Shown here piece by piece: positions 14,637 to 47,282 of a DNA stretch of 64,000 nt (within the stretch, counting starts at the first letter, position 1; the number at the start of each line of letters is the position of its first letter). Made by a program: the position numbers and the translations under genes. The notes under the pieces are model-generated. The model saw nothing but the letters and a program-made list of their open reading frames with translations, had not been told where the DNA came from and did no database searches. Origin of the DNA: Sulfuricurvum sp. (GTDB lineage: Bacteria; Campylobacterota; Campylobacteria; Campylobacterales; Sulfurimonadaceae); contig DYMK01000001.1 in NCBI GenBank assembly GCA_020721585.1, forward strand, positions 186,001 to 250,000, read 5' to 3'.

Positions 14637-15263
14637 TTGTTTAACCTCTGATTTTTTAGGATTTTTTAAATCTTGAACCGACACAGTCACTGTATTGAAA
14701 CAAGCACTATTTATGAATATCGGAAACAAAACCAAACCTTGAACCGACACAGTCACTGTATTGAAACATATTCCCAAGGGTGTTATTTAGTGTCCCCGTT
14801 GCTACTTGAACCGACACAGTCACTGTATTGAAACATGTTGCTCGCCGTTGCGAATTTCTGCTTAGTCCGACTTGAACCGACACAGTCACTGTATTGAAAC
14901 CAGGCAGTGGCTAAAGGGATGCAGGTAGATAGCAACTTGAACCGACACAGTCACTGTATTGAAACGCTATTAGAACTTTTTTTTCGTCCTTATTGATCCA
15001 GTCTTGAACCGACACAGTCACTGTATTGAAACTTTGCAATCACCACCGCATCGTTCCCGATTTGAGCTTGAACCGACACAGTCACTGTATTGAAACTTGT
15101 TGGTACTAACCGCACTACCCTTAAAGGTAATCTTGAACCGACACAGTCACTGTATTGAAACTTACTTGTTCCAATCTTTTAAAATGATTTCTTTTGCCTT
15201 GAACCGACACAGTCACTGTATTGAAACTTGTTTAACCTCTGATTTTTTAGGATTTTTTAAATC
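14637..15263 (+). repeat. Spacer pair from the same protospacer, different 3' ends
   Basis: Spacer 14637-14671 (35 nt) and spacer 15228-15263 (36 nt) are identical for 35 nt; the second carries one extra C at its 3' end. They lie nine units apart. The span given covers both spacers and the units between them. Confidence 0.9.
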
Positions 15264-18200: not shown

Positions 18201-21200
18201 AAAAAGGAGAAAAACTTGAACCGACACAGTCACTGTATTGAAACATACCAAGTGATTTACACGCTACGGCTGTTGTTCCGCCTTGAACCGACACAGTCAC
18301 TGTATTGAAACATGTGCAAACTTGTTACACAGAGATAGAGAAAGAGACTTGAACCGACACAGTCACTGTATTGAAACATCGAGGAGGCGAGTATTGTAGG
18401 GATCCCTGCAACTTGAACCGACACAGTCACTGTATTGAAACTTGTAATATTGCACCCCCTCGAATGCACCCAAAACCGCTTGAACCGACACAGTCACTGT
18501 ATTGAAACTTGAGGGCATCCGACGGTGTAGATTGTTCGGATTCGCTTGAACCGACACAGTCACTGTATTGAAACTTTTTTCGTAAAAATCCACTGATTAA
18601 TTTTTCACCTTGAACCGACACAGTCACTGTATTGAAACTCGGTTAGGGGGTAAAAAAATGCAAAAAAAACAGGTTCCTTGAACCGACACAGTCACTGTAT
18701 TGAAACTTTTTCGGAAACGTAGAGACACAAAACACAGAGATTCTTGAACCGACACAGTCACTGTATTGAAACGAACGCCGATAAAAATCGCAATAGCCAT
18801 TGCGATAAACTTGAACCGACACAGTCACTGTATTGAAACATGTCAACCTTATAGGATTTGATAAAACCCCCTAAACTTGAACCGACACAGTCACTGTATT
18901 GAAACTCAGAAGACTTATTGGATGTGTTCAAATATGCCAATCTTGAACCGACACAGTCACTGTATTGAAACGTCTTTTGGTTAGGTGAGGGATTGCGAGA
19001 GATTAACTTGAACCGACACAGTCACTGTATTGAAACTGCCTTCTGCGTTTAACGCTTTCTCTGCATCAGAACCTTGAACCGACACAGTCACTGTATTGAA
19101 ACACTGCATTGTTTACGATTACACGCGTTTTTAAACTACCTTGAACCGACACAGTCACTGTATTGAAACCCAAAGGGCTTGACGATTCCCTAAAGCGGAT
19201 CGTTTCTTGAACCGACACAGTCACTGTATTGAAACTGGAAAAATTCCTCTTCTATATAAGGAGTTGATTTTCTTGAACCGACACAGTCACTGTATTGAAA
19301 CTACAACCCATTATCACACGGACCCGACCCAAGAATCCTTGAACCGACACAGTCACTGTATTGAAACTGATTAAGTCCAACGTTTCAGAGTCCAGCCCTT
19401 GACTTGAACCGACACAGTCACTGTATTGAAACAACTTTGCATCAAGGTCAAGGGCGACCACGTCGCCCCTTGAACCGACACAGTCACTGTATTGAAACAG
19501 GTTTCAAAGGCGGGGCGCAATTTCACGGTTTCAGTCTTGAACCGACACAGTCACTGTATTGAAACTGAGTGTTCTTTCCCAACCCGCTTGATTAAAAGCC
19601 CCTTGAACCGACACAGTCACTGTATTGAAACAAAAATTTGACACCCCAAAAGCAGGGGCGGAAAAACTTGAACCGACACAGTCACTGTATTGAAACAGTG
19701 GACGGGCTAGAGCCTGTCATTGCTACCATTAACCTTGAACCGACACAGTCACTGTATTGAAACTGCGCTCCCCAATAGCTCCACGGTTCTGTGCAACCAC
19801 TTGAACCGACACAGTCACTGTATTGAAACGGCGTTTAAAGACCTCGTTACTTCCTTTAAAGGGGACTTGAACCGACACAGTCACTGTATTGAAACTACAA
19901 AATATCCGCTTTACCCTTAGCGGACGATTTCAACTTGAACCGACACAGTCACTGTATTGAAACTATCCATGAAAAACACCCTTAGATCGCACAGCAACAC
20001 TTGAACCGACACAGTCACTGTATTGAAACTCCTAAAACCTTTAACGAATCCAGTGATACACTTTACTTGAACCGACACAGTCACTGTATTGAAACTACTC
20101 CTTAAAAGATGATGATGACTTATTAGAGTCTTGAACCGACACAGTCACTGTATTGAAACACTCTAATGACGGTTGAAGACATATTTAAAATAACTCTTGA
20201 ACCGACACAGTCACTGTATTGAAACAGCGTAATTGTCAAAAAAACAGGCTCAAGACCCTGCTTGAACCGACACAGTCACTGTATTGAAACAGGGGAAACA
20301 CCCTCCCCAATACTTCCATATTAAAACTTGAACCGACACAGTCACTGTATTGAAACCCTGATTTATACAAACTAAAGATTTTAGGATCAATTCTTGAACC
20401 GACACAGTCACTGTATTGAAACTCATCAATCCTGAAGACACGCCAACAGGTACAGAACCTTGAACCGACACAGTCACTGTATTGAAACAATCTGATTGAA
20501 TTATTGGGGAAAAAAGCAAGCAAACTTGAACCGACACAGTCACTGTATTGAAACCTGTGGGCGTCGTATATAATAGCGTGGAGTACACGGCTTGAACCGA
20601 CACAGTCACTGTATTGAAACCACGTATAACCAGATTGGTGCCGCGCCGTCGATTGTCTTGAACCGACACAGTCACTGTATTGAAACTTTAGGTCGCTTGG
20701 CGACCAGTTAATCCCAGTCACAACTTGAACCGACACAGTCACTGTATTGAAACCAGTCCGCATTTACGAACATAATTAGCGTTTTAAAACTTGAACCGAC
20801 ACAGTCACTGTATTGAAACGCAGACCAGTTGTAAACGGTTTAGAGGTAGGACAAGCTTGAACCGACACAGTCACTGTATTGAAACACGAGTTATACATCT
20901 CGTTCTCCCAAACATTATACACTTGAACCGACACAGTCACTGTATTGAAACCTATTGTCGCAGGTTTAAGACCGTCGTACTCGGTTACTTGAACCGACAC
21001 AGTCACTGTATTGAAACAGAGTTAAACCAACTAGATTGGAAATTTGCGGTGGACTTGAACCGACACAGTCACTGTATTGAAACTAGGCACCAAAAACGGT
21101 GTCCATGAACCATTCCCGCTTGAACCGACACAGTCACTGTATTGAAACAAGCTTATTGTGACGCGAGTTAGCTGTTGAACGCTCCTTGAACCGACACAGT

Positions 21201-22233
21201 CACTGTATTGAAACTTATCAAAACTTTGACTATTGTTTTTATAAAGATTTCTTGAACCGACACAGTCACTGTATTGAAACAAGATTCCGTGACGAGAGAG
21301 AGCCAACCTCCCGAGACTTGAACCGACACAGTCACTGTATTGAAACCTTTAGCTATGGAGATATGAGCCAAATGAATGCACTTGAACCGACACAGTCACT
21401 GTATTGAAACGCTTTTTTAAGGACGAGTTGTTGTTTTTTATGCAACCTTGAACCGACACAGTCACTGTATTGAAACTTGAACGGGTAATTGAAGCTTATA
21501 TAGCGATCAACTTGAACCGACACAGTCACTGTATTGAAACCTCCATCCCCCTGTTTGAATACAAGAAGGTCAATGCTTGAACCGACACAGTCACTGTATT
21601 GAAACTTTTTTAAATTAGGGGCTAGGAATAATACCCTAAACTTGAACCGACACAGTCACTGTATTGAAACGTACGTTGTGATTGTGATGATGGTAATTTA
21701 GCATCCTTGAACCGACACAGTCACTGTATTGAAACGAGGTTTCTACGACGTTATCTATTAAAGCGGATAATCTTGAACCGACACAGTCACTGTATTGAAA
21801 CACAGCAACACCAGCCATCTCGAATAACTTTCGCACACTTGAACCGACACAGTCACTGTATTGAAACGTCCGTAGTGGGTAAGATCGAATTCCGTAGAAC
21901 TGAACTTGAACCGACACAGTCACTGTATTGAAACTTTCGTATTCTTGCTTCTTCGTCATATTGTTGCTTCTTGAACCGACACAGTCACTGTATTGAAACA
22001 GCGTTTAAAGACCTCGTTACTTCCTTTAAAGGGGACTTGAACCGACACAGTCACTGTATTGAAACTGTGATAACACGTACTCGCCACGAAGGGCGAGTAA
22101 CCTTGAACCGACACAGTCACTGTATTGAAACTCACGTGCATCCGAGAGGAACGAATTTGCGACATCACTTGAACCGACACAGTCACTGTATTGAAACTTT
22201 TTTGACAAAAATTTTTGACGATCATTGTCCAAT

Positions 22234-22363
22234 CTTGAACCGACACAGTCACTGTATTGAAACTGAAGAAGACGAAACCCGTCTCCTCCTGAACCGTACT
22301 TGAACCGACACAGTCACTGTATTGAAACTGAAGAAGACGAAACCCGTCTCCTCCTGAACCGTA
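22234..22363 (+). repeat. Tandem duplication of one CRISPR unit
   Basis: Spacers 22264-22298 and 22329-22363 are identical 35-mers in neighbouring units, as are the repeats before them. This is a 65-bp tandem duplication, most simply explained by recombination or slippage between repeats and not by two acquisitions. Confidence 0.93.
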
Positions 22364-25300
22364 CTTGAACCGACACAGTCACTGTATTGAAACATTAGCT
22401 TTACGCTAACCGTCCCCTCTTTTACTATTCTTGAACCGACACAGTCACTGTATTGAAACCTGTTTCCACCGAAGTTGATATCGGTACCATCAAGCTTGAA
22501 CCGACACAGTCACTGTATTGAAACATCTGCTTTTAAAGGTGATTGAGGAGCAGAATAGTCTTGAACCGACACAGTCACTGTATTGAAACTTGTAGACAAT
22601 GGTGGGTCATTAATCGGCGATGACTTGAACCGACACAGTCACTGTATTGAAACTAAGTGTCTAGCGCAGTTTATAGAGATCATTGATACTCTTGAACCGA
22701 CACAGTCACTGTATTGAAACCTGGACGTGGAAGAGATGCGGGAGTAAGTTTAAGACACTTGAACCGACACAGTCACTGTATTGAAACTTGGTATACTTTT
22801 TGTTTATCAAGCCCGAAATATTTCTTGAACCGACACAGTCACTGTATTGAAACTTTTTTTCTATCTTCCCCCTGAAGGAAAGAAAACGCCTTGAACCGAC
22901 ACAGTCACTGTATTGAAACAGGTGAGGTGCCAAAAAACACCATAAAGCGACCTCGCTTGAACCGACACAGTCACTGTATTGAAACTAAATAACAACCTCA
23001 TCAATCTCATTAAGAGATTGGCTTGAACCGACACAGTCACTGTATTGAAACAAGCTCTTGACCTTGCCATCGCCGTTTTTTCCCTTGCTTGAACCGACAC
23101 AGTCACTGTATTGAAACAATCCCTTAAAGATTTTGCATGAGTTGCTATGCTTGCTTGAACCGACACAGTCACTGTATTGAAACTCGATGTAATAGAATGT
23201 TACACCTTGTGTTTTATCTCTTGAACCGACACAGTCACTGTATTGAAACTAGTAACTGTCGGTGTTGGTGGGTTAAGATGTAAGACTTGAACCGACACAG
23301 TCACTGTATTGAAACATCATTGCCATTGTTGCACTCATGACGCATAGCTCCCTTGAACCGACACAGTCACTGTATTGAAACCAGCAAGCGGTTTTATGGG
23401 GTTGACGATTGGTTTCTTGAACCGACACAGTCACTGTATTGAAACTATCCTTCTGCCCAAAAATAAGTTTCGTCAATTGATCTTGAACCGACACAGTCAC
23501 TGTATTGAAACTGAATAACAACCTCATCAATCTCATCAAGAGATTCTTGAACCGACACAGTCACTGTATTGAAACAAAGAACAGGTTCTTTTAGGACTTG
23601 AGGATCAACGCTTGAACCGACACAGTCACTGTATTGAAACAAGATTTCAAAGATCAAGAGCTAAATACCCTTGATCTTGAACCGACACAGTCACTGTATT
23701 GAAACTGTGTCGTTTTTGTGCTTTTAAAAATAAAAAAAAGTCTTGAACCGACACAGTCACTGTATTGAAACTTTAAGAATATCTCACTCTTCAAATTGGA
23801 CAATGACTTGAACCGACACAGTCACTGTATTGAAACGTTGTTCGAGAAGGTAAGAATCGTCACCCCGAAAGTCTTGAACCGACACAGTCACTGTATTGAA
23901 ACTTTTGGGTGACGAAAGTATTATCGGACAAATATTTTCTTGAACCGACACAGTCACTGTATTGAAACAGAATTCAAATGGTGATTTAATGCACGGTACA
24001 GACACTTGAACCGACACAGTCACTGTATTGAAACAAAGAGCATTACTTTTAGCCTGAGCATCTCTGCATTCTTGAACCGACACAGTCACTGTATTGAAAC
24101 TTGTGTAGTAGTCAGCTTCCTCGCGTGGAATTTGACTTGAACCGACACAGTCACTGTATTGAAACGCATTTCAGCATGGTTACTAAAACCATGCCTTGAC
24201 GCTTGAACCGACACAGTCACTGTATTGAAACACCTCCCGAGACTAGTGGGAATCCGCATAGCGATGCTTGAACCGACACAGTCACTGTATTGAAACCCCG
24301 CATCTCTCCCCCGTCCTACGGATCAAGGGAGTGACTTGAACCGACACAGTCACTGTATTGAAACTACGTTTCCGTAGTCGCTCTCCCTAAAGGCGGGTTT
24401 CTTGAACCGACACAGTCACTGTATTGAAACTAAGGTTATCCGAGAAGTCCTTGATCTTTGCGCCCTCCTTGAACCGACACAGTCACTGTATTGAAACACA
24501 ATTCCCATATCCGTACTTGCGACAATCGCAATTCTTGAACCGACACAGTCACTGTATTGAAACGATGCAATTACAATTGAGGGAACGGGAACAACTATTC
24601 TTGAACCGACACAGTCACTGTATTGAAACTATTTGTAACGTCAGCTAAAGGGTCTGATGTGGACTTGAACCGACACAGTCACTGTATTGAAACCGTTTTT
24701 AAGCACAGTTTCGCCAGTGATTGATAATCCCTTGAACCGACACAGTCACTGTATTGAAACATACATAGTTATAAGGTATTGTGGACTTGCTGGTCTTGAA
24801 CCGACACAGTCACTGTATTGAAACGAGGTAGAGCGGACTTAAGCAATTAAGTTGTTGTCGCTTGAACCGACACAGTCACTGTATTGAAACATTGTTCCTC
24901 GATTATCGATTTCAACATAGAGATGAACTTGAACCGACACAGTCACTGTATTGAAACTATACCCGTTCTGACCGCCGTAGGTGGCATCCAGTGTCTTGAA
25001 CCGACACAGTCACTGTATTGAAACCTATGCTAGACGTGTAAAATTCATCGGTCTTCGCAGCTTGAACCGACACAGTCACTGTATTGAAACCTAATTTGTG
25101 CTTTATAGCGGTATCCAATCGTCCCAGCTTGAACCGACACAGTCACTGTATTGAAACTTCGCTTTGCTTGGCATTTGATCGTAGTATTTCTTCTTGAACC
25201 GACACAGTCACTGTATTGAAACCTGTTGTTCTTGTAAAGATTTTGAAAGAAATTATCACTTGAACCGACACAGTCACTGTATTGAAACTGACATAGGTAC

Positions 25301-27961
25301 TGAAAGAACGACATCCTTTTTAACTTGAACCGACACAGTCACTGTATTGAAACTTGAAATAAACACGTAAGTTTGCATTACAACCAGCTTGAACCGACAC
25401 AGTCACTGTATTGAAACTATTTTGCTTTTAATTTTTTTATCTCATCTTGTGACCTTGAACCGACACAGTCACTGTATTGAAACAATTTTGGATTATGGGA
25501 AAAAGTACGAAATGTCACACTTGAACCGACACAGTCACTGTATTGAAACTTTGAGCAATTTATCGAATTTTTACAGTTTAAATTACTTGAACCGACACAG
25601 TCACTGTATTGAAACACCAAATAAGCAGGGACAACCGAAACAGGCATAAAATCTTGAACCGACACAGTCACTGTATTGAAACAATCTTGATGAGTAATGA
25701 ATGCAATTTTGGCATTGCTTGAACCGACACAGTCACTGTATTGAAACTCTATAGACATAGGATCACCGATCTTGTCTATGCATCTTGAACCGACACAGTC
25801 ACTGTATTGAAACTGTTTTTGATGATCTGCTCTTTCACTAAATTCATTGCTTGAACCGACACAGTCACTGTATTGAAACTGAAATATATGAAAAAGGTGG
25901 GATAATATGAATAACTTGAACCGACACAGTCACTGTATTGAAACAATCTTTTAAGATGATATTTTTGGCTTGCAAAGTTCCTTGAACCGACACAGTCACT
26001 GTATTGAAACACACGCCAAAGAGGGTGTCGGGGCTTGGTTTTTATCCTTGAACCGACACAGTCACTGTATTGAAACAGAGCTTGACGATCACTAAGCAAA
26101 AAAGTAGGGGAACTTGAACCGACACAGTCACTGTATTGAAACACTGGGGAAATAAATGACAAAAAATCCCCCGTTAACTTGAACCGACACAGTCACTGTA
26201 TTGAAACAAGCTCCACCAATTGCAATCACAAAACTCCAACTTACTTGAACCGACACAGTCACTGTATTGAAACTGCGTTAAAGCTACTCTATATTTAGCA
26301 TAAGATTGCACTTGAACCGACACAGTCACTGTATTGAAACTGGGCGGAACGATTAAGTTTCCCCACCCCAAGGAGGCTTGAACCGACACAGTCACTGTAT
26401 TGAAACCGGATCAAAAAATATGAGTGTTTTCGATGCGTGGAGCTTGAACCGACACAGTCACTGTATTGAAACTTAAGAAAAGTGCTTTTCAGCACGGTTC
26501 TCATCCGGCTTGAACCGACACAGTCACTGTATTGAAACAAGCAACTAAAAATTAATGTTATGTTGTTGTTGTCTTGAACCGACACAGTCACTGTATTGAA
26601 ACATCAAAGCCCCCGTGATTGGGGCAACTCTCTCTTTTCTTGAACCGACACAGTCACTGTATTGAAACCAAGGGGGCGGGGGGTTCCCTTTGAGGGGGAG
26701 GGGCTTGAACCGACACAGTCACTGTATTGAAACCAACTACAACTCACTTCTCATCCTTTTTGATGACCCCTTGAACCGACACAGTCACTGTATTGAAACA
26801 CATTCATGCTATCGAGAGATTTTTTTGCGTTTACCTTGAACCGACACAGTCACTGTATTGAAACATGGGAGATTGGTAGTGGGGTGTGGTAGCCACAGCT
26901 CCTTGAACCGACACAGTCACTGTATTGAAACAGGGAAATGTTCCCGTCGTCGATGCCCTTCGATAAGCCTTGAACCGACACAGTCACTGTATTGAAACAA
27001 GCTGTGGTTAGCATCGAGCACTACGTGTACACCATCTTGAACCGACACAGTCACTGTATTGAAACTCAGTCCTATAGCCAAGCTCCTTGAGTATCTCGCC
27101 TCTTGAACCGACACAGTCACTGTATTGAAACGGAGATGCTTTAGAATGTTTTGCATCTTTACCACCACTTGAACCGACACAGTCACTGTATTGAAACGCC
27201 GCGAGCTGATCATCCTTGGTATTCCAGCTTCCATCCTTGAACCGACACAGTCACTGTATTGAAACTTTTTTTTCATAAGTCACCTCAATAACTCTCATAA
27301 CTTGAACCGACACAGTCACTGTATTGAAACAAGCCACGATAATATTCGAACCTAAGATCGTCTAATTCTTGAACCGACACAGTCACTGTATTGAAACGAA
27401 GCCCTTGAGCTTCTAAAAATGAAGAGCAACGCGCTTGAACCGACACAGTCACTGTATTGAAACGCGGTTTTCCCTTTGATGACGATTGACGGAAGTTTTT
27501 CTTGAACCGACACAGTCACTGTATTGAAACAGGAAGAAAAGCCCAAAAATAGGGAGGTTAAAACACACTTGAACCGACACAGTCACTGTATTGAAACAAG
27601 ACCTTAGAGGGGTCGCCATCTTTTCCGTTTTGGCTTGAACCGACACAGTCACTGTATTGAAACGCCGTTTAACTAAGTCGAACAACACGATATAGCAATC
27701 TTGAACCGACACAGTCACTGTATTGAAACTCCGCAATAAAACTACGGACGTCAGAATAGTACCCGCTTGAACCGACACAGTCACTGTATTGAAACATACC
27801 CACTACACCAATAGAGTCATTGGTAGAACCCTTGAACCGACACAGTCACTGTATTGAAACATTTACGCTTAATACATTGATAAAAAACCTCTTTATCTTG
27901 AACCGACACAGTCACTGTATTGAAACATGGATCCGAAACCCCTATTTTTTTTAGTCCGAGG

Positions 27962-28093
27962 CTTGAACCGACACAGTCACTGTATTGAAACATCTTGCAG
28001 GGAAACAACCATTAAACACGGTATTAACTTGAACCGACACAGTCACTGTATTGAAACATCTTGCAGGGAAACAACCATTAAACACGGTATTAA
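27962..28093 (+). repeat. Tandem duplication of one CRISPR unit
   Basis: Spacers 27992-28027 and 28058-28093 are identical 36-mers in adjacent units, so a 66-bp unit is duplicated in tandem. Confidence 0.93.
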
Positions 28094-29480
28094 CTTGAAC
28101 CGACACAGTCACTGTATTGAAACAGTCTAAGAATCTCCCACCTACTGCGTAGGATGGAACTTGAACCGACACAGTCACTGTATTGAAACTCGGCTTCCTC
28201 GATCACGAAGCATATTACCGCTTTCCTTGAACCGACACAGTCACTGTATTGAAACTATAAACCTTGATGTACTTATCTTGGCGCACAACCGCTTGAACCG
28301 ACACAGTCACTGTATTGAAACTAATTGCGCGCTCGGGTGCGATAAATTTGGTCATCTCTTGAACCGACACAGTCACTGTATTGAAACAAAATATATCTTT
28401 CTTTAAAAAAGATTTTATTTTTTCTTGAACCGACACAGTCACTGTATTGAAACCCTTTTTTCCCATACGATCGTACCCGACCGTGAAAGCTTGAACCGAC
28501 ACAGTCACTGTATTGAAACTTGAGATTTCGTTACGCATCATTGGAACGTCACATAGCTTGAACCGACACAGTCACTGTATTGAAACGTATTACAAGATAT
28601 ATTTAATCGCATGATTGCTCCCCTTGAACCGACACAGTCACTGTATTGAAACATTACTATCTCTTTATTACTATCTCTTTCTTTATAGCTTGAACCGACA
28701 CAGTCACTGTATTGAAACAGACGATTGTTCTTTTGTTGATGCCAAAATAGCAACTTGAACCGACACAGTCACTGTATTGAAACAAGAAGCTCCGTACAGT
28801 TGCACGGACTTCGGGAGACTTGAACCGACACAGTCACTGTATTGAAACAAATTCAGGCGATAACTTTGTATCCGTCTAAAGATTCTTGAACCGACACAGT
28901 CACTGTATTGAAACTTAGTGTTATTGGAGTATGTACGTTATAAAATTCTTTCTTGAACCGACACAGTCACTGTATTGAAACATAAACCTATAAGAAAAAA
29001 ATCCCTCTTTTCTATAGCTTGAACCGACACAGTCACTGTATTGAAACACGAGTAACACCGTTACCGAGTCTTTCACTATGGGCTTGAACCGACACAGTCA
29101 CTGTATTGAAACAGGATTTATAGCTGAGCTGTAAGCTCTCGATAGAACCTTGAACCGACACAGTCACTGTATTGAAACTATTTTTCCACTACTTCGTCGC
29201 GTATCTTTTTTTCGCTTGAACCGACACAGTCACTGTATTGAAACGGGCGGAATCCCCCAACCAAGATACCCCCCCCGTCAGCTTGAACCGACACAGTCAC
29301 TGTATTGAAACTGCACTACTTCCGCTGCAATGCGCTTTGCGCGTTCACTTGAACCGACACAGTCACTGTATTGAAACTTTGAACTAATATAGTCCACGGT
29401 ACCCCTTAGGGTACTTGAACCGACACAGTCACTGTATTGAAACTTGGAGAGTAAAGGGATAACTACCGTGACAAATTCCC

Positions 29481-29744
29481 CTTGAACCGACACAGTCACT
29501 GTATTGAAACTCATCCATATAAAGGGGAAACCACACACCCCCCAAGCTTGAACCGACACAGTCACTGTATTGAAACATCGAGGGTTCCGCCCTAAATGGG
29601 GGGGGGTATCTTCTTGAACCGACACAGTCACTGTATTGAAACTCATCCATATAAAGGGGAAACCACACACCCCCCAAGCTTGAACCGACACAGTCACTGT
29701 ATTGAAACATCGAGGGTTCCGCCCTAAATGGGGGGGGGTATCTT
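29481..29744 (+). repeat. Tandem duplication of a two-spacer CRISPR block
   Basis: Units 29481-29612 and 29613-29744 are the same 132-bp block: the spacers at 29511-29546 and 29577-29612 recur in the same order at 29643-29678 and 29709-29744. Because two different spacers recur in order, duplication inside the array is the only simple explanation. Confidence 0.95.
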
Positions 29745-31094
29745 CTTGAACCGACACAGTCACTGTATTGAAACAAGCTTTAGAGGAATCTAAAGCGAAG
29801 TATACGGATCCTTGAACCGACACAGTCACTGTATTGAAACATGGTTCTTACCGATTGTTGGGAGTGGGTTTTCTTCCCTTGAACCGACACAGTCACTGTA
29901 TTGAAACCGGCTCAAGGCAACATTTTAGGGGAAGTCGTTTCCCCCTTGAACCGACACAGTCACTGTATTGAAACTGTAAAGATTGTTTTTGTTCAAAACT
30001 TCCGCTATTCTTGAACCGACACAGTCACTGTATTGAAACTTGCTCATAAAGCTCTCCCAACTCAAAGGTCGTCCCCTTGAACCGACACAGTCACTGTATT
30101 GAAACTTTGAATGATAATAAAGTGCCGTGTAGAGAAATTTGTCTTGAACCGACACAGTCACTGTATTGAAACACGCTCTTGACGGCTAATACTGACTTTG
30201 TTCGCACGACTTGAACCGACACAGTCACTGTATTGAAACTTGGTTCTTGCAGCTTCCATGATAATTAGTGTCTCTTGAACCGACACAGTCACTGTATTGA
30301 AACTCGTCGAGTTTTACTTTTGAGACTGCATTTCGAGCATCTTGAACCGACACAGTCACTGTATTGAAACCGAATCCAGCAGTAACCTGCCTTTTCCCAT
30401 TCTTCCTTGAACCGACACAGTCACTGTATTGAAACGGCTCGAGACAGATTTGACAGGGAACAAAAAATACCTTGAACCGACACAGTCACTGTATTGAAAC
30501 TAGCATTAACCAATTTTTCTTGTTGTTCTTCTTCCCTTGAACCGACACAGTCACTGTATTGAAACGCTATGAAAATCTATATAAGGTGTACTTGCTGTAG
30601 TACTTGAACCGACACAGTCACTGTATTGAAACCCCGTATCCGTAGTGTCGATAGTATCATTATCAAGACTTGAACCGACACAGTCACTGTATTGAAACAT
30701 CTTATTCCAACAATCAGTTTTTCTATGGATGTAACTTGAACCGACACAGTCACTGTATTGAAACACGTCGAACTCGTAATAACGTACATCCGGAAGGTTG
30801 CTTGAACCGACACAGTCACTGTATTGAAACTCTTCACTAAGTGATTTGAACGCCTCAGAATATGTTCTTGAACCGACACAGTCACTGTATTGAAACTTTT
30901 GATCGACAACAGCCTTTTTAGAAAAACCGCGACTTGAACCGACACAGTCACTGTATTGAAACTTGCAGTGGCAATAAGTAGAATAGGGTTTTTAATAATC
31001 TTGAACCGACACAGTCACTGTATTGAAACTGCTTATCGAGGCGTTTAAGTCTAGCTAATCCTTGCTTGAACCGACACAGTCACTGTATTGAAAC

Positions 31095-39410: not shown

Positions 39411-39728
39411 TTACGCAGCCAAATATGGGTTAGCGTAAAGAGCAATAAGAGCGATAACCAAAGTATAGATAACTTGTGCTTCGATCATAGCAAGGGCGAT
39501 GAACATAGTCGTCATCAATTTTCCGCCAAGACCTGGATTACGTGCCGTACCAGCGATAGTTGCAGCAGCAGTGCTACCCATACCGATAGCTCCACCAAGT
39601 GCAGCCAAACCTAGACCAACACCTGCAGCGATCATTGAATACGCTTTAAGGGTTTGATTTGCTACTTCTGCATCAGCACCAAATGCTACTGCGGCAAGAG
39701 CAACCATAAGAAAAAGAACTTTTTTCAT
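39411..39728 (-). CDS. atpE: F-type ATP synthase subunit c
   Basis: A 105-residue c subunit, longer than most because of an N-terminal signal-like helix (residues 1-18) that is usual in Campylobacterota. AAGVGLGLAALGGAIGMG is the first ring helix, ARNPGL is the polar loop, and the second helix FIALAMIEAQVIYTLVIALI carries the ion-binding Glu. It forms the membrane rotor ring of ATP synthase. The other ATP synthase genes are not nearby, as in related genomes where atpE stands alone. The Shine-Dalgarno ACGGAG precedes the ATG. Confidence 0.95.
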   Translation of the reverse strand: MKKVLFLMVALAAVAFGADAEVANQTLKAYSMIAAGVGLGLAALGGAIGMGSTAAATIAGTARNPGLGGKLMTTMFIALAMIEAQVIYTLVIALIALYANPYLAA

Positions 39729-39821: not shown

Positions 39822-41996
39822 TTACTTAGCCCGAGCTAATCCAATTTTTGTCCCTTTAAATTCCACAATCTCTACTCTAATGGCATCCCCCTCACTCACC
39901 ACATCGCTCACACGGCTAATATGACTATCAGAGAGTTTTGAGATATGAATAAGACCATCGGTCCCCCCTGGAAGTTCGATAAAGGCACCAAAATCGACGA
40001 TTTTTTTCACTTTACCCTCGACAACATCCCCTACTTTGTATTCAACTTTTGGGCTTGCTTCGCTCGTGCCAACAATACCCATAATGTGTGTTCGCGCCCC
40101 TTTAATCCCTTCCCGATTTTTACCTGTCAATTTAACGGATCCACTTTTTTTGTCAATATCAATACTCACCGCAAATTTTTCGATAATTTCTCGAATTGTT
40201 TTGCCTGCTTGACCGATAACATCCACAATAGACGTTGCGGGGATACTAAAAATATCGGTCGAAGGGAGTGTCCCCTCGTTGAGTTCAATGGTGCTTTCAG
40301 CGTCAACCATAATATCGATAATATGAGCGCGTGCTGCTTTGGCTTGATACAACGCTTCGCGAAGAACATCCAAGTGAATTCCCCCAAGCTTAATGTCCAT
40401 TTGCATCGCAGTGATCCCCTCTTTGGAACCGGCTACTTTAAAATCCAAATCACCATCATGGTCTTCCAATCCCATAATATCGCTCAAAATAGCGTGACGA
40501 TTCCCCTCTTGAATCATCCCCATTGCCACGCCTGCAATAGGCTCACACACCTCAATATCCCCTGCACGCAATGCCATGTAGCCACCACAAATGGTTGCCA
40601 TCGACGAAGAGCCATTGGATTCCAAAATTTCCGAGACCAAGCGAATGGTTTGCCCATTGCGAACCGTGGAACCTTCCAATGCTCGCTTAGCTAAGTTACC
40701 ATGCCCCAGTTCACGACGACGGGGCGCGCCAATGGAGGAGGGTTCCCCTACGCTAAATCCTGGGAAATTGTAATGTACCATAAACCCTTCATTCTGGGTT
40801 CCACTGTCGGCCAACCCCTCATACATTTGGGCATCTTTGGCTCCCCCCAACGTCAGTACCACCAACGCCTGGGTCTGACCACGGGTAAACAACGCAGAAG
40901 CATGGGCGCTGGGAAGAATATTGGTCTCAATACGAATAGGGCGCACTTGTGTTAGCGTCCTACCATCAGCACGGATAGCATCGTCCAAAATTTGGGCACG
41001 CACCATGGAACGCTTGACCACTTCAATTGCTTTTTTCAAGGCGTGTTCATCCCAGTGAGACTGTGACTCCATAATTTTTTTACGAATGGTACGTAACGCT
41101 TTGGAGCGTTCCGTTTTTGCCATTTGGGTGATACCACGCTTAAGATCTTCGGTGTGGTGCAAACGAACATATTCCATCATCGCTTCGTCTACCTCACTGA
41201 CCACATATTTCAACTCAAAGGCAAATTTAGCCTGCGGTTTAAAAGCCGTTTCATACGCGATATTCGCCGTGGTAAGCTCCTCTTGGGCGCGTGCTAAAAT
41301 TTCAATCAGTTCATCTTCGGGCAATGCATTACTGCGACGTTGAAGTGCCACTTCAGGAAGGGCAAGGGGATCCATAAAAAGCTCACTTCCCACCCCTAAG
41401 GCGATTGCTTCATCGGTGCCATTGGCTTGCATCTCAATCATCAACATATCGTCACGACTTCCCGCGAGATAGAGATCAAGGGTGCTTTGTTTTAGTTGTG
41501 ACAAGGTCGGGTTGATAATAATGTTCCCATCAATTTTTCCTACACGAACCGCACTGACGGAGGTAAAAATATCAATATCGGACAGATACAAAGCAGCCGA
41601 TGCTGCATTAAGTGCCAAGACTTGTAAATCCGATTCAGGATCACTGCTTAAGACCAAAATCGAAATTTGGATAGGATTGGCAAACCCTTTGGGAAACAAA
41701 GGTCGAAGCGATCGATCCACAATACGGGAGGTGAGCGCTTCAAAATCGCTGGGTTTGGTCTCACGTTTGATAAATCCACTGGGAAATTTCCCCGCCGCGT
41801 AACTTTTTTCGAGGTATTGTACCGTCAAGGGTAAAAAATCTTCATCAACAAAATCGGTCTCATCGACCACAACGGTAGCCAAAATAACGGTATTTCCTGA
41901 CTTTAGCCACACCGCTCCATTGGCTTGAGCCGCCACTTGATTGAGTGCATACGACTCCTCTTTGTTGGTCAATGCCAATGTAATATCATATTTCAT
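39822..41996 (-). CDS. pnp: Polynucleotide phosphorylase
   Basis: A 724-residue PNPase. Two RNase PH domains are separated by an all-helical domain: the first has FIKRETKPSDFEALTSRIVDRSLRP, the second RRRELGHGNLAKRAL and DIMGLEDHDGDLDFKVAGS. A KH domain (VIGQAGKTIREI) and a C-terminal S1 domain (VGDVVEGKVKKIVDFGAFIEL) follow. It degrades RNA 3' to 5' with phosphate. The gene is 28 bp after the MCE gene. No autoregulatory hairpin was resolved upstream. Confidence 0.97.
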   Translation of the reverse strand: MKYDITLALTNKEESYALNQVAAQANGAVWLKSGNTVILATVVVDETDFVDEDFLPLTVQYLEKSYAAGKFPSGFIKRETKPSDFEALTSRIVDRSLRPLFPKGFANPIQISILVLSSDPESDLQVLALNAASAALYLSDIDIFTSVSAVRVGKIDGNIIINPTLSQLKQSTLDLYLAGSRDDMLMIEMQANGTDEAIALGVGSELFMDPLALPEVALQRRSNALPEDELIEILARAQEELTTANIAYETAFKPQAKFAFELKYVVSEVDEAMMEYVRLHHTEDLKRGITQMAKTERSKALRTIRKKIMESQSHWDEHALKKAIEVVKRSMVRAQILDDAIRADGRTLTQVRPIRIETNILPSAHASALFTRGQTQALVVLTLGGAKDAQMYEGLADSGTQNEGFMVHYNFPGFSVGEPSSIGAPRRRELGHGNLAKRALEGSTVRNGQTIRLVSEILESNGSSSMATICGGYMALRAGDIEVCEPIAGVAMGMIQEGNRHAILSDIMGLEDHDGDLDFKVAGSKEGITAMQMDIKLGGIHLDVLREALYQAKAARAHIIDIMVDAESTIELNEGTLPSTDIFSIPATSIVDVIGQAGKTIREIIEKFAVSIDIDKKSGSVKLTGKNREGIKGARTHIMGIVGTSEASPKVEYKVGDVVEGKVKKIVDFGAFIELPGGTDGLIHISKLSDSHISRVSDVVSEGDAIRVEIVEFKGTKIGLARAK

Positions 41997-42024: not shown

Positions 42025-43425
42025 TTATCGTGCTAAAGTAGCTGCACCCGATAAATATTTTATATCGTTGTCAATAAATCGAACTCCTACGCCAAAAAAG
42101 ACATTCTGAGCTTTAGCATTCAAGAAGTTATCCCATCCAGCAGAGAATTCCAAATGTTTTAAGAGTTGGTATCGTGCTTGTGCTTTGAGGTGGACATTGC
42201 TTCCTCGAACATCGTTAATGGCACTCCAGTCAAACGCCTCTGCGGAAAATTTGAGTTTATCATGATCCATAAAATAATCAACCCCTATACCGCCGGTGGA
42301 TTCAATCGCACCAAAGCGAAGAAGGGTATTATTAAACCGCTTCCCGTATTGTCCTGAGATGTACCGCTTCCCTTTGACATGCGGTCCTGGGAGTGCGGTT
42401 TGGGTAATCGAATAATCATTGGTACTGACTAAATCCAGCATATAATACGTCTCTGGATTCGGAAGATACGTCGCTCCCAAATAAATTTTTCCATACCCAT
42501 CGCGCATCATAGCATCGGTGTGCATCGCCACTTGTAATTCACTGGTCGTAAAAGTAGAAAGGAGAGTATCTACCCGAGAAAAGGCTTGTTCGCCACTTTT
42601 GAAAAACGAATCAGCTGAGGTAATAGTGCTTTTAAGACCACTACGATTTTCCGCCAAAATATCACTAACGTTGTCCTCGATTTTTACAAATTTATCGACC
42701 GCCTCAGGGAGTTTATGCTCCAATGCACCACTGATGTTATCAATACGGGTGGTCAAAGAATTCGCATGATCCATAATAGCGGGGAGGTCTTGATTGATCG
42801 TATTGGCGGTTTGGGCAAAACCACCGCTCATCGCCCTGAAATTACTAATAGCATCGTGTAGTTCGGTACGATTTTCGGTAATAACCCCATTAAGGTTGAC
42901 CCCCACATCGCGGAAAGCGACAATCGCATCTTGAATCGCTTTTCGGTGTTCTTCATCTAAGGTAGTACGGAAATCGTGCAATAAAAGCTGAAGCTCTTTA
43001 GCCGCATCATTGACCGAATCACTGGTTTGGTCAAACGAGGCGTATCGTTTAGACTGCGATAATATCCCTTGCGTTTTAAGATACGTATGGGCATCTCCTA
43101 CCACGATGTTAAGTACTTTTGAACCTAATAACGACTCTTGGGCAACGATAATGGAGGAGTCTTCGGGAATTTTTACCCCTTCATTAATCAACAATTGGAG
43201 TCGTACGTGTTTGCCCTCAATGGTAATGGATTGTACCTCACCAATCATGACCCCATTCATGGAGACGTGGGTTTGTTTCTCAATCCCTGAAGCATCATCA
43301 ATGTAAGCGTCAATGGGATACCCTTTTTGCCCCCATTTTCCCAACGAGGTCACCTGAGTAGAGAGAAGTAAAAGGGCTCCAAGCGATACCGTAACAAATA
43401 ATCCAACTTTTGCTTCTAATTTCAT
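42025..43425 (-). CDS. MCE/MlaD-family protein with beta-rich C-terminal extension
   Basis: A 466-residue protein. One N-terminal membrane helix (about residues 7-25) precedes an MCE domain (YPIDAYIDDASGIEKQTHVSMNGVMIGEVQSI and PEDSSIIVAQESLLGSKVLNIVVGD, about residues 36-113). A long helical segment of about 190 residues follows, as expected for MCE periplasmic needles. The last 160 or so residues (YGKIYLGATYLPNPETYYMLDLV, FNNTLLRFGAIESTGGIGVDYFM, LKHLEFSAGWDNFL, FFGVGVRFIDNDIKYL) alternate like strands of a small outer-membrane barrel. MCE proteins move lipids between membranes. The gene sits 14 bp downstream of lptD, which suits an envelope role. Confidence 0.82.
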   Translation of the reverse strand: MKLEAKVGLFVTVSLGALLLLSTQVTSLGKWGQKGYPIDAYIDDASGIEKQTHVSMNGVMIGEVQSITIEGKHVRLQLLINEGVKIPEDSSIIVAQESLLGSKVLNIVVGDAHTYLKTQGILSQSKRYASFDQTSDSVNDAAKELQLLLHDFRTTLDEEHRKAIQDAIVAFRDVGVNLNGVITENRTELHDAISNFRAMSGGFAQTANTINQDLPAIMDHANSLTTRIDNISGALEHKLPEAVDKFVKIEDNVSDILAENRSGLKSTITSADSFFKSGEQAFSRVDTLLSTFTTSELQVAMHTDAMMRDGYGKIYLGATYLPNPETYYMLDLVSTNDYSITQTALPGPHVKGKRYISGQYGKRFNNTLLRFGAIESTGGIGVDYFMDHDKLKFSAEAFDWSAINDVRGSNVHLKAQARYQLLKHLEFSAGWDNFLNAKAQNVFFGVGVRFIDNDIKYLSGAATLAR

Positions 43426-43439
43426 AACGTTGCGCCCCT

Positions 43440-45587
43440 TTAGTTGTTATTCAAATGGTAATTAAACATCGAACCACCCAATGGTTTAAAGAGAATGGTG
43501 ACATAAACATACCTATCATTCACCGAATCATTAGCATTGACAATGGTGGAAATAGGTCGAATATTTTGAACAAACTTTAACCCAAAATCGAGGCATCGGG
43601 TAGTGTACATAAAACCAACTTCCTCCCGTTTGAGTACGTTTGCATGGTAATCGTATGCGGCAAGGGCAAAAAATTTGTAATTGTCATTATACGTATAATT
43701 GGCATTGGCGGTTAGATAACTGGCATACGTGGGCATACCATTAATGAGCGTATCCGTATAGTAATGACTCATACTAGCGCTAAGCGATTCATCGGTATAG
43801 CGAACCGTATTTTGTTCTTTGGTAATACGGCCACGGGAATGGTTAAACGCCGTTTGGTTGTACAATGACAACGACTTATTTACTTGCCACTCAGCTTCAT
43901 TTTGCAGTTCAGATGCGCTATTACCTGTGGGATCACGGTAAAAATTTTGGGATAACCGATCGGAAAAAACTTGCTTATTTTTTTGCATGATATAGTTGTT
44001 AAGGGCAAATGCCAAGGTATCACGCGGAGGATTAAGGGTATAAAAATCGCACGCAGGATTGGTATTCCCCAACGTACACGTTGCAGAGTATTCTTTATAA
44101 TATCCACTGTAGACATGACTTCCTGCACTGGAATAACTCACTTCCGGTGCCATAACATGGGTAAAGGTTGCATAAGGGCGTACCAAGGTACTGCTTAGCT
44201 TAAAGACGTGACTCAGCTGTGCATACAACCCCTGATTGGTATTATTAAGGGTTTGCCCTCCGTTACTGAGATTCGCATCGTTACCATACAAACTCAAAGT
44301 ACGCAATGAACCTTTCGCCGTATAACTGGCATCCACTATCCCATCGAGTAAAGACGTCCGTAACGTAAGGGGGATGACCATATCCCCTTGAATCCCTTTT
44401 TTACCTTCGTCACGATAAAAATTATTGACCGTTGCATCCCCATTGAGGAGAAGATGATTTCCAAAAAAACTCTCTAAGTAACGGTGATAATGAAGATTGG
44501 GAAGGGTTTGGATGGTACGTGCGTTACTGGATTGATCCAAATATTGGTAATACTTAGCATAAAGACCAAAATAGTTTTTCTCCCCATTGTAGTAACTGTT
44601 CACCCGAGAGATCACTTGGTTTGAGGTGACGTTATAAATTTGGTCGCTGTGCTGAAGATTGAGGTAATCCACATCACTCATGCGACTGATACGGACATAC
44701 AATCCTGACTCACCGGAGAGATTTATCCCAAACCACTGCGATAAAAGAGCGGTATTACGATAGTCAAAATTGTATCCATAGTGTTTTTTAAACGCCAAAT
44801 TGTGGGCTACGGCATACCCTTCTTGCTCTTTAAAATACCCCAAACGGAGCGTTCCTTTGGAATTAGCCCCATCGACAAATCGAAAATCACTGTATATTCC
44901 CTCTCCGCGTGAGGTACGAATTTGAGGGCGCAACTCCACATCCCACCAATTTTTGGGGGCAAGATAGATTGGTTGTTGGTAATAAAATCCTTCTCCATTG
45001 GAAAATCCAAACGTGGGTATCAACAAGCCACTTCGGCGTGTTTGATCGGTGGGGTACCCAAAATAGGGTAAATACATCACGGGGACATCTTTGACGTATA
45101 ACAGTGCGTTATACATATTGACCCACTGGCTTTGGGTATCGTAATCGGCACTGCTAAAATGGATTTTCCATAAAGGCTTCGTCGAATCACACCCCGAAAG
45201 CATCCCTTTGGAGAGATCAATCTTATTTTGACACCCTGTGGCATCCATTGCACTAATCCACGCACTGCTGTTGGTATCAATAGCGTAATAGGGTTTGAGA
45301 TAACGGGTTTCTTTGGCGAGATTGAGACGAGAATACTCACTGATTGTGTGGTATTGTCCCCCCTTAAACGCATTTACCTGACCAAATGCTTCCACCGTAC
45401 TGGTATTATTATCGTACGTTAAGGTTTTGGCACTCACCACTTGATCTTGATAGATTAACGTCGGATACGTCGTGGAATGGACAATCCCATTATTGGCATC
45501 CACAGCCTGACCCATCATCCAAACGTGTTCGCCACTCCATGCCATGGTGGCATTTAAAAGCCCAATAAGAACAATACTACGCATCAA
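43440..45587 (-). CDS. lptD: LPS-assembly protein LptD
   Basis: A 715-residue LptD/OstA. A signal peptide (about residues 1-17) is followed by an OstA-like N-terminal domain and a large beta-barrel domain with RRSGLLIPTFGFSNGEGFYYQQPIYLAPKNWWDVELRPQIRTSRGEGIYSDFRF, the conserved early barrel region. Two cysteines occur near residues 118 and 128. It inserts LPS into the outer leaflet of the outer membrane with LptE. It overlaps the RDD gene by 11 bp. A 36-residue LptM-like lipoprotein, a family linked to LptD maturation in E. coli, is encoded 9 kb away at 54648-54758. Confidence 0.93.
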   Translation of the reverse strand: MMRSIVLIGLLNATMAWSGEHVWMMGQAVDANNGIVHSTTYPTLIYQDQVVSAKTLTYDNNTSTVEAFGQVNAFKGGQYHTISEYSRLNLAKETRYLKPYYAIDTNSSAWISAMDATGCQNKIDLSKGMLSGCDSTKPLWKIHFSSADYDTQSQWVNMYNALLYVKDVPVMYLPYFGYPTDQTRRSGLLIPTFGFSNGEGFYYQQPIYLAPKNWWDVELRPQIRTSRGEGIYSDFRFVDGANSKGTLRLGYFKEQEGYAVAHNLAFKKHYGYNFDYRNTALLSQWFGINLSGESGLYVRISRMSDVDYLNLQHSDQIYNVTSNQVISRVNSYYNGEKNYFGLYAKYYQYLDQSSNARTIQTLPNLHYHRYLESFFGNHLLLNGDATVNNFYRDEGKKGIQGDMVIPLTLRTSLLDGIVDASYTAKGSLRTLSLYGNDANLSNGGQTLNNTNQGLYAQLSHVFKLSSTLVRPYATFTHVMAPEVSYSSAGSHVYSGYYKEYSATCTLGNTNPACDFYTLNPPRDTLAFALNNYIMQKNKQVFSDRLSQNFYRDPTGNSASELQNEAEWQVNKSLSLYNQTAFNHSRGRITKEQNTVRYTDESLSASMSHYYTDTLINGMPTYASYLTANANYTYNDNYKFFALAAYDYHANVLKREEVGFMYTTRCLDFGLKFVQNIRPISTIVNANDSVNDRYVYVTILFKPLGGSMFNYHLNNN

Positions 45588-46014
45588 TCACCAACGTTCT
45601 GGCACTCAAATCGTGCCAACTGCGACGGAAAGGGTCAAAAAATGCCCATATAAATCCTAGGTAAACGACTATTTCACTGACGATGCGAAAAACAGCGCGA
45701 TTCAAGGCAGACCAAAATTGGGGATGTCCTTGGGGATGCGCCAACTCAATGACCCGTATTTTCATCGCCATTTTTCCTAAACTTGCCCCATACATTAGGG
45801 TAAACAAGGTCTGATACGCAATGCACAAAAGGTAATACTCCCCTATAAAGCGTTGCGTCAATGCCATAATTTCTTCAAAACCCATATCAGGACGTACATA
45901 CGAAAAAAGGATAATGGAAAGCAAAAGAGAGAGGAGCAGTTGATCGATGGCAAACGCCCAAGAGCGTTTCCACGTCGAGGCGAGTTGATACTCGAGTATA
46001 ATTTCGTCGTTCAT
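45577..46014 (-). CDS. RDD family membrane protein
   Basis: A 145-residue protein. It shows [21 protein letters not shown] near the start, the R and D residues that name the family. Membrane segments lie near residues 20-40 and 60-80, with [12 protein letters not shown] after them and a C-terminal hydrophobic stretch with [11 protein letters not shown]. Function is unknown for most members. It overlaps purD by 4 bp and lptD by 11 bp, so it is tightly coupled. Confidence 0.85.
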
Positions 46015-47282
46015 TGACGTAAAGCCTGATACGCAATATCGGTACGGAGTTTTTTACCGGCAAAATGGACTTGACCGCAGAGCATATAGGCACGATCGCG
46101 AGCTTGCTTGATACTTTCACCCACGCCGACGCAGACCAAAACCCGTCCACCTGTGGCATAAAGTTTCCCCTCTTCTTCACTTACCCCTGCGTAAGCAATA
46201 TGGGTATGCTGCGCAATTTCTTCGTGATGCACGGTATCCACGATAATTTCCGCAGGTACGGAGTTATCGTAGGGATAGTTATGACTTGCCATGACCACAC
46301 CCACCGCGTATTGGTCATGAAATTCGACTTTGAGGGTATCGAGTTGTTTGGTAGCGGCTTTATAAAACAGCTCACTGGCGGGTGTTTTAAGTAACGGCAT
46401 CAAAATTTCACATTCAGGATCCCCAAAACGGACATTAAATTCCAAGGTAATGGGTTCGCCATTGACAATCATTAATCCGATAAACAAAACACCCTCAAAC
46501 GGCGCACCCTCTTCTTGCATCCCCTCTAGCGTAGGTCGAACGATACGCTCTTTAACTTTTTCGTAAATGACCTCATCGACCAACGGTGTCGGCGCATACG
46601 CCCCCATCCCACCGGTATTGGGCCCCTCGTCATTGTCCAAAAGGCGTTTATGGTCTTGAGCTGCGGGGAGAAGGATAAAATCTTTTCCATCACACAAAGC
46701 AAACATCGAAAGTTCATAGCCGTCTAAGAACTCTTCGACGACCACCCGTTTACCCGCATCCCCAAACGATTTACCGCTGAGCATTTCCGAAACGGCTACT
46801 TTTGCCTCTTCATAGCTCATAGCGATGATCACCCCTTTACCCGCGCACAATCCATCGGCTTTTACCACAATGGGAACGGTGAGTGATTCGATAAACTTGA
46901 ACGCATCCCCGATATGATCGGTCTGGATATAGCGAGCCGTCGGAATGTTATATTTGGCCAAAAAGTTTTTCATATACACTTTAGAACCCTCTAATTGTGC
47001 AGCGGCTTTGGAAGGACCAAAAATGACCAACCCTTTTGCCTTGAAAATATCGACAACGCCATCACTAAGCGGCCCTTCAGGTCCTACGATGGTAAGATCA
47101 ATGCCATTATCAAGGGCAAACTGCGCCAATGCGTCGTATTCTTTAATCGCAACATTTTCACCCAACATAGACGTTGCACCATTACCCGGAGCAAAATAAA
47201 GGGCAGAGACTTCAGGGTCATTTTTAAGAACTCTCCCGATCGAAAATTCTCGTCCACCACTTCCAATGACCATTACTTTCAT
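46011..47282 (-). CDS. purD: Phosphoribosylamine-glycine ligase
   Basis: A 423-residue ATP-grasp enzyme. The N-terminal [12 protein letters not shown] is the GARS signature. [13 protein letters not shown] binds [12 protein letters not shown] and [18 protein letters not shown] are PurD motifs. It joins 5-phosphoribosylamine and glycine in purine synthesis. It is preceded by a candidate 6S RNA on the same strand and leads into the RDD-lptD-MCE-pnp group. Full length. Confidence 0.97.

Follow-up and report, generated by a model that had tools for sequence, protein, structure and literature searches.

The DNA analysed here, called the window throughout, is a stretch of 64,000 nt from Sulfuricurvum sp. 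(assembly GCA_020721585.1, contig DYMK01000001.1, positions 186,001-250,000 of the forward strand). It contains a same-strand run of genes in the order purD - RDD - lptD - mlaD - pnp - atpE (Table 1), in which mlaD codes for a long MlaD (MCE) protein with a predicted C-terminal β-barrel, referred to as barrel MlaD in what follows; the last gene of the run is atpE-like, a name given on the basis of its sequence. A gap of 14 bp separates lptD from mlaD, in agreement with an earlier note on this DNA, which had placed the gene directly after lptD, and 28 bp lie between mlaD and pnp. A scan for promoters and terminators, which is weak evidence and returned about as many sites as expected from shuffled sequence, placed a terminator-like site after the atpE-like gene (39393-39375) and none on the minus strand within mlaD or its two flanking gaps. 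Most of the close relatives of barrel MlaD that carry a name come from Sulfuricurvum (Campylobacterota) and share about 70-78% identity with it; the top relative, at 81% identity, is labelled Campylobacterales only.

Table 1. Features of the mlaD locus and of the protein that it encodes (positions are those of the window).
Feature	Coordinates	Strand	Remarks
mlaD-barrel gene	42025..43425	-	466-aa long MlaD (MCE) protein with predicted C-terminal β-barrel; ATG start
N-terminal inner-membrane helix, residues 3-28	43342..43419	-	helix in the AlphaFold2 (AF2) model
MCE (MlaD) domain, residues 34-109	43099..43326	-	PF02470, E 9e-17
Helical bridge region, about residues 127-293	42547..43047	-	AF2 and helix amphipathicity
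Predicted ten-stranded outer-membrane β-barrel, residues 296-452	42070..42540	-	AF2, structure matches, profile comparison
Last barrel strand, residues 441-450	42076..42105	-	NVFFGVGVRF; outer-membrane-type pattern, ends in Phe450
Conserved post-barrel tail, residues 453-466	42028..42069	-	helix 456-465 predicted, low confidence
lptD, immediately upstream of mlaD	43440..45587	-	PF04453, E 3.6e-15; listed start TTG, true start uncertain
RDD-family membrane protein, upstream, same gene run	45577..46014	-	PF06271, E 4.2e-22
purD, upstream, same gene run	46011..47282	-	PF01071
pnp, downstream neighbour of mlaD	39822..41996	-	PF01138; neighbourhood conserved
atpE-like gene, last of the gene run	39411..39728	-	105 aa

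Elsewhere in the window, positions 12574-31094 hold a very large CRISPR-like array, in which a 30-nt repeat (CTTGAACCGACACAGTCACTGTATTGAAAC) occurs 282 times without mismatch, at a spacing of 64-68 bp; no Rfam match was found between positions 12000 and 32000.

The earlier note had read a membrane helix, an MCE domain, long helices and a β-rich end of about 160 residues into the protein, and all of these were recovered by AlphaFold2 and by the match to PF02470, the β-rich part measuring about 157 residues, plus a tail of 14 residues. In the full-length model, which was built with 34 sequences, the N-terminal helix (residues 3-28) is followed by the strands of the MCE part (35-126), helices (132-293), ten antiparallel strands (296-452) and, with low confidence, a short helix at the C-terminus. 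The MCE part resembles solved MlaD structures (e.g., 5uw8, TMt 0.88), and the first rank for the full-length model in Foldseek goes to mycobacterial Mce1 (PDB 8fed). Between the MCE domain and the barrel, the helical region counts 168 residues in 24 of the 31 Campylobacterota rows of the homologue alignment (range 143-168), a length that would correspond to about 25 nm for a single straight helix; its amphipathic peak at 100 degrees was reached by none of 2000 shuffles. The pLDDT of helices 132-293 is mostly below 50 and the pTM of the full model is 0.38, so that the geometry of a bridge across the periplasm is not predicted by the model.

The barrel was modelled with more confidence: the last 177 residues, taken separately, again gave ten strands (pLDDT 84.5, pTM 0.76). 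Outer-membrane barrels dominate the Foldseek list obtained with this model and also occupy its top; with VIA-align, the top row is OpcA (Z 16.4, rmsd 2.8, 142 aligned residues), and the other matches include Pla (Z 14.6, rmsd 3.3, 141 aligned), a Legionella porin (Z 14.3, rmsd 3.4, 152 aligned), the designed ten-stranded membrane barrel TMB10 (Z 13.8, rmsd 2.6, 133 aligned) and OmpT (Z 11.1, rmsd 3.3, 145 aligned), OpcA, Pla and OmpT being ten-stranded as well. The fold check thus returned the barrel that the earlier note had suspected, with soluble nitrobindin-type ten-stranded barrels still aligning at Z 11-12. At the level of sequence, the barrel matched none of the chains of solved structures at E up to 1, and a Pfam scan of 32 barrel sequences assigned no family to the barrel of the window protein and four families to the set, each with one member matched (best UPF0164, E 0.0038).

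A canonical outer-membrane barrel terminates at an aromatic residue, and the aromatic last strand that the note had looked for is present, though not at the extreme C-terminus. Indeed, Phe450 is invariant in the homologue alignment (32/32 rows) and the last strand is hydrophobic at positions 442, 444, 446 and 448 in 30, 32, 32 and 30 of the 32 rows, respectively; 16 residues follow Phe450, and this tail is conserved in Campylobacterota, whereas the two Negativicutes relatives described below lack it and stop exactly at the equivalent Phe. Putative periplasmic turns of 2-4 residues alternate in the model with outer loops of up to 30 residues (one loop has only 2), as expected if both ends of the barrel face the periplasm. 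Strand alternation, considered as a proof of membrane insertion, was dropped because the strands of the MCE domain, used as a control, are equally amphipathic; barrel strand 3 shows almost no alternation. Taken together, the predicted structure and its matches support a ten-stranded outer-membrane barrel as the C-terminal domain.

The fold has a counterpart in a distant group. With the family alignment as query, tblastn retrieved proteins from Selenomonadaceae (L075, E 2e-21) and Anaerovibrio (L077, E 2e-18) over residues 1-450, and a profile of the Campylobacterota barrels aligned with these two Negativicutes barrels in hhalign with 96.3% probability (E 1.8e-9); at both of these loci, the barrel mlaD comes after mlaE-mlaF. 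According to the main text of Grasekamp et al. 2023 (PMC10665443), MlaD of Veillonella parvula (419 aa) consists of a helix, an MCE domain, about 150 helical residues and a ten-stranded barrel, and this barrel, taken separately, fractionates with the outer membrane. The protein of the window is a long MlaD with a C-terminal barrel, of the V. parvula type, the comparison having been made with the Negativicutes relatives, and with V. parvula itself by its description. The earlier note's expectation of an outer-membrane barrel is thereby strengthened, as far as a model can do so, by the ten strands, the top matches OpcA and Pla, the pattern of the last strand and the Negativicutes homology.

We then looked at the neighbourhood of barrel mlaD at 48 loci of Campylobacterota (L027-L074), using tblastn with the proteins of the window. 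LptD lies upstream in 44 of them; among the four others, L068 and L069 start at or close to the start of a contig, and no LptD was found at L070 (Thiovulum) and L071. Neither MlaE nor MlaF was found in the flanks of any of the 48 loci. The linkage also holds in all 28 carriers of barrel mlaD in a phylum-wide sample (see below), where LptD is upstream on the same strand and Pnp downstream; the stop codon of lptD falls -4 to +18 bp from the start of mlaD in 27 of these, and the distance of 209 bp read in the remaining one (L144) possibly comes from a truncated LptD match. A gene that looks phosphoribosyltransferase-like by its sequence often sits between mlaD and pnp (e.g., L057-L067) and is absent from the window. 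In Campylobacterota, mlaD has thus left the mlaEFD operon and now stands directly after lptD, an arrangement that is new as far as the literature shows. This link suggests co-expression with LPS export, and physical coupling is a possibility.

The earlier note had proposed to locate the genes for MlaE and MlaF, and the genome that holds the window has homologues of both, carried on contigs other than that of mlaD. It contains mlaE twice and has MCE genes at two loci: one contig (C20) carries a complete MlaE-MlaF-MCE locus, and the second mlaE is solitary on another (C90). The MCE protein of the C20 locus (L002, L004) has about 303 aa, without a C-terminus of barrel length, and the MlaE frame there has 394 aa, with a possible extra N-terminal domain. 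Outside C20, the best ATPase match is a solitary mlaF-like gene on a third contig (C61), whose top NCBIfam model is MlaF, at 212 bits (below the cut-off of 441), with the next model at 180; its upstream neighbour codes for a DUF4149 protein. Such a DUF4149 membrane-protein gene precedes the lone mlaF at 20 of 20 loci in the family and at some, not all, loci in the phylum, and its product may be an additional component of the system. The lone mlaE has matches to AcpS and/or FliL beside most copies, across genera; within the family, DUF493 and carbonic anhydrase genes lie beside most copies on the side opposite to fliL/acpS, all four neighbours being named on the basis of their sequences. Against the MlaE and MlaF encoded in one operon with barrel MlaD in Negativicutes (e.g., at L077), the orphans outscore the C20 proteins, for MlaE (151 vs. 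110 bits, the C20 query being the shorter, 209-aa reading) as well as for MlaF (207 vs. 166 bits).

In order to follow the three genes beyond this genome, we scored them in a phylum-wide set of 200 genomes from 47 genera, each with a completeness of at least 90%. Barrel MlaD, lone MlaE and lone MlaF occur in an identical set of 28 of the 200 genomes, in 15 of the 47 genera; in all 28, any two of the three genes that share a contig are separated by 21 kb or more. The calls are well separated: for MlaF, with 13 candidates scored per genome and a threshold of E up to 1e-50 (1e-60 in the family sample), the E-values of the 28 carriers do not exceed 6e-76, and the match that follows them has 3e-56; for the orphan MlaE, the corresponding values are 1.3e-78 and 1.2e-31. 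MlaA was found in none of the 28 carriers and in 110 of the 172 other genomes (110/200 in total); at the genus level, 15 carrier genera and 18 MlaA genera of the 47 do not overlap. Barrel MlaD and MlaA are thus mutually exclusive in the phylum sample; Fisher values for such counts treat genomes as independent and ignore shared ancestry, and are over-stated.

The picture in a sample of 61 genomes of the family is close to this. The protein is matched in 20 of them and is of the barrel type in 19; its recurrence in this sample and in the phylum sample shows that the reading frame and its architecture did not arise by chance. The counts are 19 for barrel MlaD, 18 for lone MlaE (one of them, in G041, split between two contigs and scored once) and 20 for lone MlaF; lone MlaE accompanies 17 of the 19 barrel MlaD proteins and lone MlaF all 19. 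The exceptions are G008 (100% complete) and G033, with MlaD and MlaF without MlaE, and G004, with MlaE and MlaF without MlaD. Counts of barrel MlaD exclude G028 (E 6e-5, residues 7-190 only) and short second matches in G037 and G045, and include G023, whose match ends at the contig end, at residue 175. A mirror-tree comparison of 27 genomes, where the MlaD set was used without G137 (a match split in two rows), gave correlations of 0.78-0.90 between the pairwise distances of MlaD, MlaE, MlaF, Pnp and LptD; the partial correlations given Pnp are 0.60 for MlaD-MlaE, 0.53 for MlaD-MlaF, 0.58 for MlaE-MlaF, 0.48 for MlaD-LptD and 0.30 for MlaE-LptD. These values fit joint vertical descent and are not decisive. 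Overall, there is strong evidence that the partners of barrel MlaD are the products of two unlinked single genes, a pairing that we infer.

With the domain order, the predicted fold, the homology to the Negativicutes barrels, the adjacency to lptD, the co-occurrence of the three genes and the exclusion of MlaA established, we consider it quite probable that Campylobacterota use a dispersed, three-protein, ATP-driven phospholipid bridge, a scheme in which we infer outer-membrane insertion, the hexamer, the pairing with the orphans, the substrate, the direction and the coupling to lptD expression. By analogy with V. parvula and the matched MCE structures, the MlaD subunit, presumably hexameric, would rest on an ABC transporter of the composition MlaE2F2, its N-terminal helix lying in the inner membrane; the cognate permease and ATPase would be the unlinked MlaE (its gene next to fliL/acpS) and the unlinked MlaF (its gene next to a DUF4149 gene). 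The MCE ring and an amphipathic helix of about 25 nm would form a hydrophobic conduit through the periplasm, along which ATP hydrolysis by MlaF would drive glycerophospholipids, and the ten-stranded barrel would be inserted in the outer membrane. Since the V. parvula barrel is held by its authors to be too narrow for a phospholipid (PMC10665443, main text), the barrel would probably anchor the end of the tunnel in the outer membrane, the lipid not passing through its narrow lumen. Flow would most likely run from the outer to the inner membrane, which would make MlaA and MlaC unnecessary, and mlaD would be read with lptD, so that the amount of bridge would be coupled to LPS export. The one-protein bridge of the earlier note keeps its predicted span between the two membranes and loses its solitude: the MlaE and MlaF partners exist, and its MCE part presumably forms a hexamer.

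Two of the parts of this scheme, the barrel and its partners, can be read differently. The C-terminal domain could be a soluble periplasmic lipid-binding barrel of ten strands (calycin/nitrobindin-like), that is, a lipid carrier tethered at the end of the helix, and an amphipathic strand pattern suits either topology; nitrobindin and other soluble barrels do reach Z 10-12 against the model, but outer-membrane barrels rank first (Z 13.8-16.4) and top the Foldseek list. The tail beyond the Phe of the last strand, unlike the ending of a canonical outer-membrane barrel, would also suit a soluble domain, yet the last-strand pattern with its constant Phe450 is of the outer-membrane type and the Negativicutes homologues end exactly at this Phe. 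Together with the homology to the Negativicutes barrel, whose V. parvula counterpart fractionates with the outer membrane (PMC10665443, main text), this makes the soluble carrier improbable in our view. As for the partners, barrel MlaD could serve the C20 ABC complex, made of MlaE, MlaF and a short MCE protein, or more than one permease, and the two orphans would then belong to a different transporter: the C20 locus is complete and could supply partners within the same genome, but it already has its own MCE protein, and MlaE of the C20 type also occurs in many genomes without a barrel protein. Two of the 19 barrel genomes of the family have no detectable orphan MlaE, a point in favour of such service, against which stand the single 28/200 set formed by the two orphans and barrel MlaD and the higher scores of the orphans against the Negativicutes operon partners, reached with a shorter (209-aa) MlaE query for C20. 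We give this reading little credence and retain the unlinked MlaE and MlaF as partners.

Doubt is larger for the direction of transport, as it is for Mla systems in general, where it is debated (PMC10665443, main text). The mla mutants of V. parvula show phenotypes of disrupted lipid asymmetry, which are suppressed by tamB mutations and were taken by the authors of the same study as a sign of retrograde transport; by analogy with these mutants, retrograde flow would be somewhat the likelier direction for the Campylobacterota bridge as well. It is conceivable, though on the unlikely side, that the bridge carries lipids outward, from the inner to the outer membrane, and supplies phospholipid beside LptD as the outer membrane grows; the close linkage of mlaD to lptD, which encodes the protein that inserts LPS, would suit this role, but gene order is uninformative on direction and the V. 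parvula mutants speak against it. A further step, which we consider distinctly speculative, would make the phospholipid bridge and the LPS exporter one coordinated module, in which co-translation of lptD and mlaD would let the MlaD barrel settle at LptD or close to it and remove phospholipid from the outer leaflet at the sites of LPS insertion, the ATPase and permease being encoded elsewhere.

The type of protein is known, and its genomic arrangement is new as far as the literature shows. The idea of the earlier note, an MCE protein that ends in its own barrel, was already described in 2023 (PMC10665443). In the literature covered, open-access main texts, neither a linkage of barrel mlaD to lptD nor a scattering of its mlaE and mlaF partners was seen to be described, and only PMC10665443 was directly relevant to these subjects and to barrel MlaD in Campylobacterota; its main text contains “campylobacter” once, in the reference list, and neither “epsilonproteobacteria” nor “sulfurimonas”, and its supplement may list Campylobacterota barrels. 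Isom et al. 2017 (PMC5561183) describe the MCE neighbourhoods of Proteobacteria as having permease and ATPase upstream, and LptD goes unmentioned in their section on neighbourhoods. The 2023 survey named MlaF only when it adjoined another mla gene and built its tree from clustered genes only (PMC10665443, main text); because MlaF was named by synteny, a scattered system would enter this survey without its ATPase and be missing from the MlaD-MlaE tree. The common set of 28 genomes offers a route to recover such systems without synteny, and it names the partner genes. Barrel MlaD and MlaA separate cleanly within one phylum, and sometimes within one family, which makes the proposed exchange between bridge and shuttle systems testable between close relatives, and the fixed lptD-mlaD order is a concrete ground on which to ask whether the removal of phospholipid is coordinated with the insertion of LPS.

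Among known systems, MlaEFD of V. parvula is matched in domain order, in the logic of three components and in a genome without MlaA; it differs in that the Campylobacterota mlaD follows lptD outside any mlaEFD operon, with mlaE and mlaF as unlinked single genes, and the Campylobacterota proteins bear a conserved 16-residue tail beyond the Phe of the last strand, unlike V. parvula MlaD. Helical extensions are present in some long MlaD proteins (PMC10665443, main text), and we take clustering in mlaEFD as a usual, not a defining, trait of the long barrel MlaD. With MlaD of the six-part E. coli system (MlaFEDB-C-A), the protein shares the membrane helix, the MCE domain and the partners MlaE and MlaF, whereas E. 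coli MlaD has 183 aa and no barrel (PMC10665443, main text) and its system requires MlaA and MlaC. An assignment to the short MlaD of that system was rejected, as the match of the window protein to TIGR04430, the NCBIfam equivalog model for MlaD, reaches 80.9 bits, below the cut-off of 135. Mycobacterial Mce1 (8fed) likewise has an MCE ring followed by long helices; it is a heterohexamer with a tip barrel to which each chain gives one strand (PMC10665443, main text), whereas the window protein would provide ten strands per chain. Membership in the mycobacterial Mce family was also rejected (TIGR00996, 93.5 bits, under the cut-off of 140.5).

PqiB and LetB (YebT) have multiple tandem MCE domains and are not known to have an outer-membrane barrel (PMC5561183). 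The idea of a transenvelope lipid tunnel is common to them and to barrel MlaD; they differ from the window protein, with its one MCE domain and its predicted barrel, in exactly this architecture. Some relatives in the family that carry barrel MlaD (e.g., G002, G005, G024, and G042) also have multi-MCE proteins of about 880-940 aa that are LetB/YebT-like; tunnel-type and bridge-type systems thus coexist in some genomes of the family.
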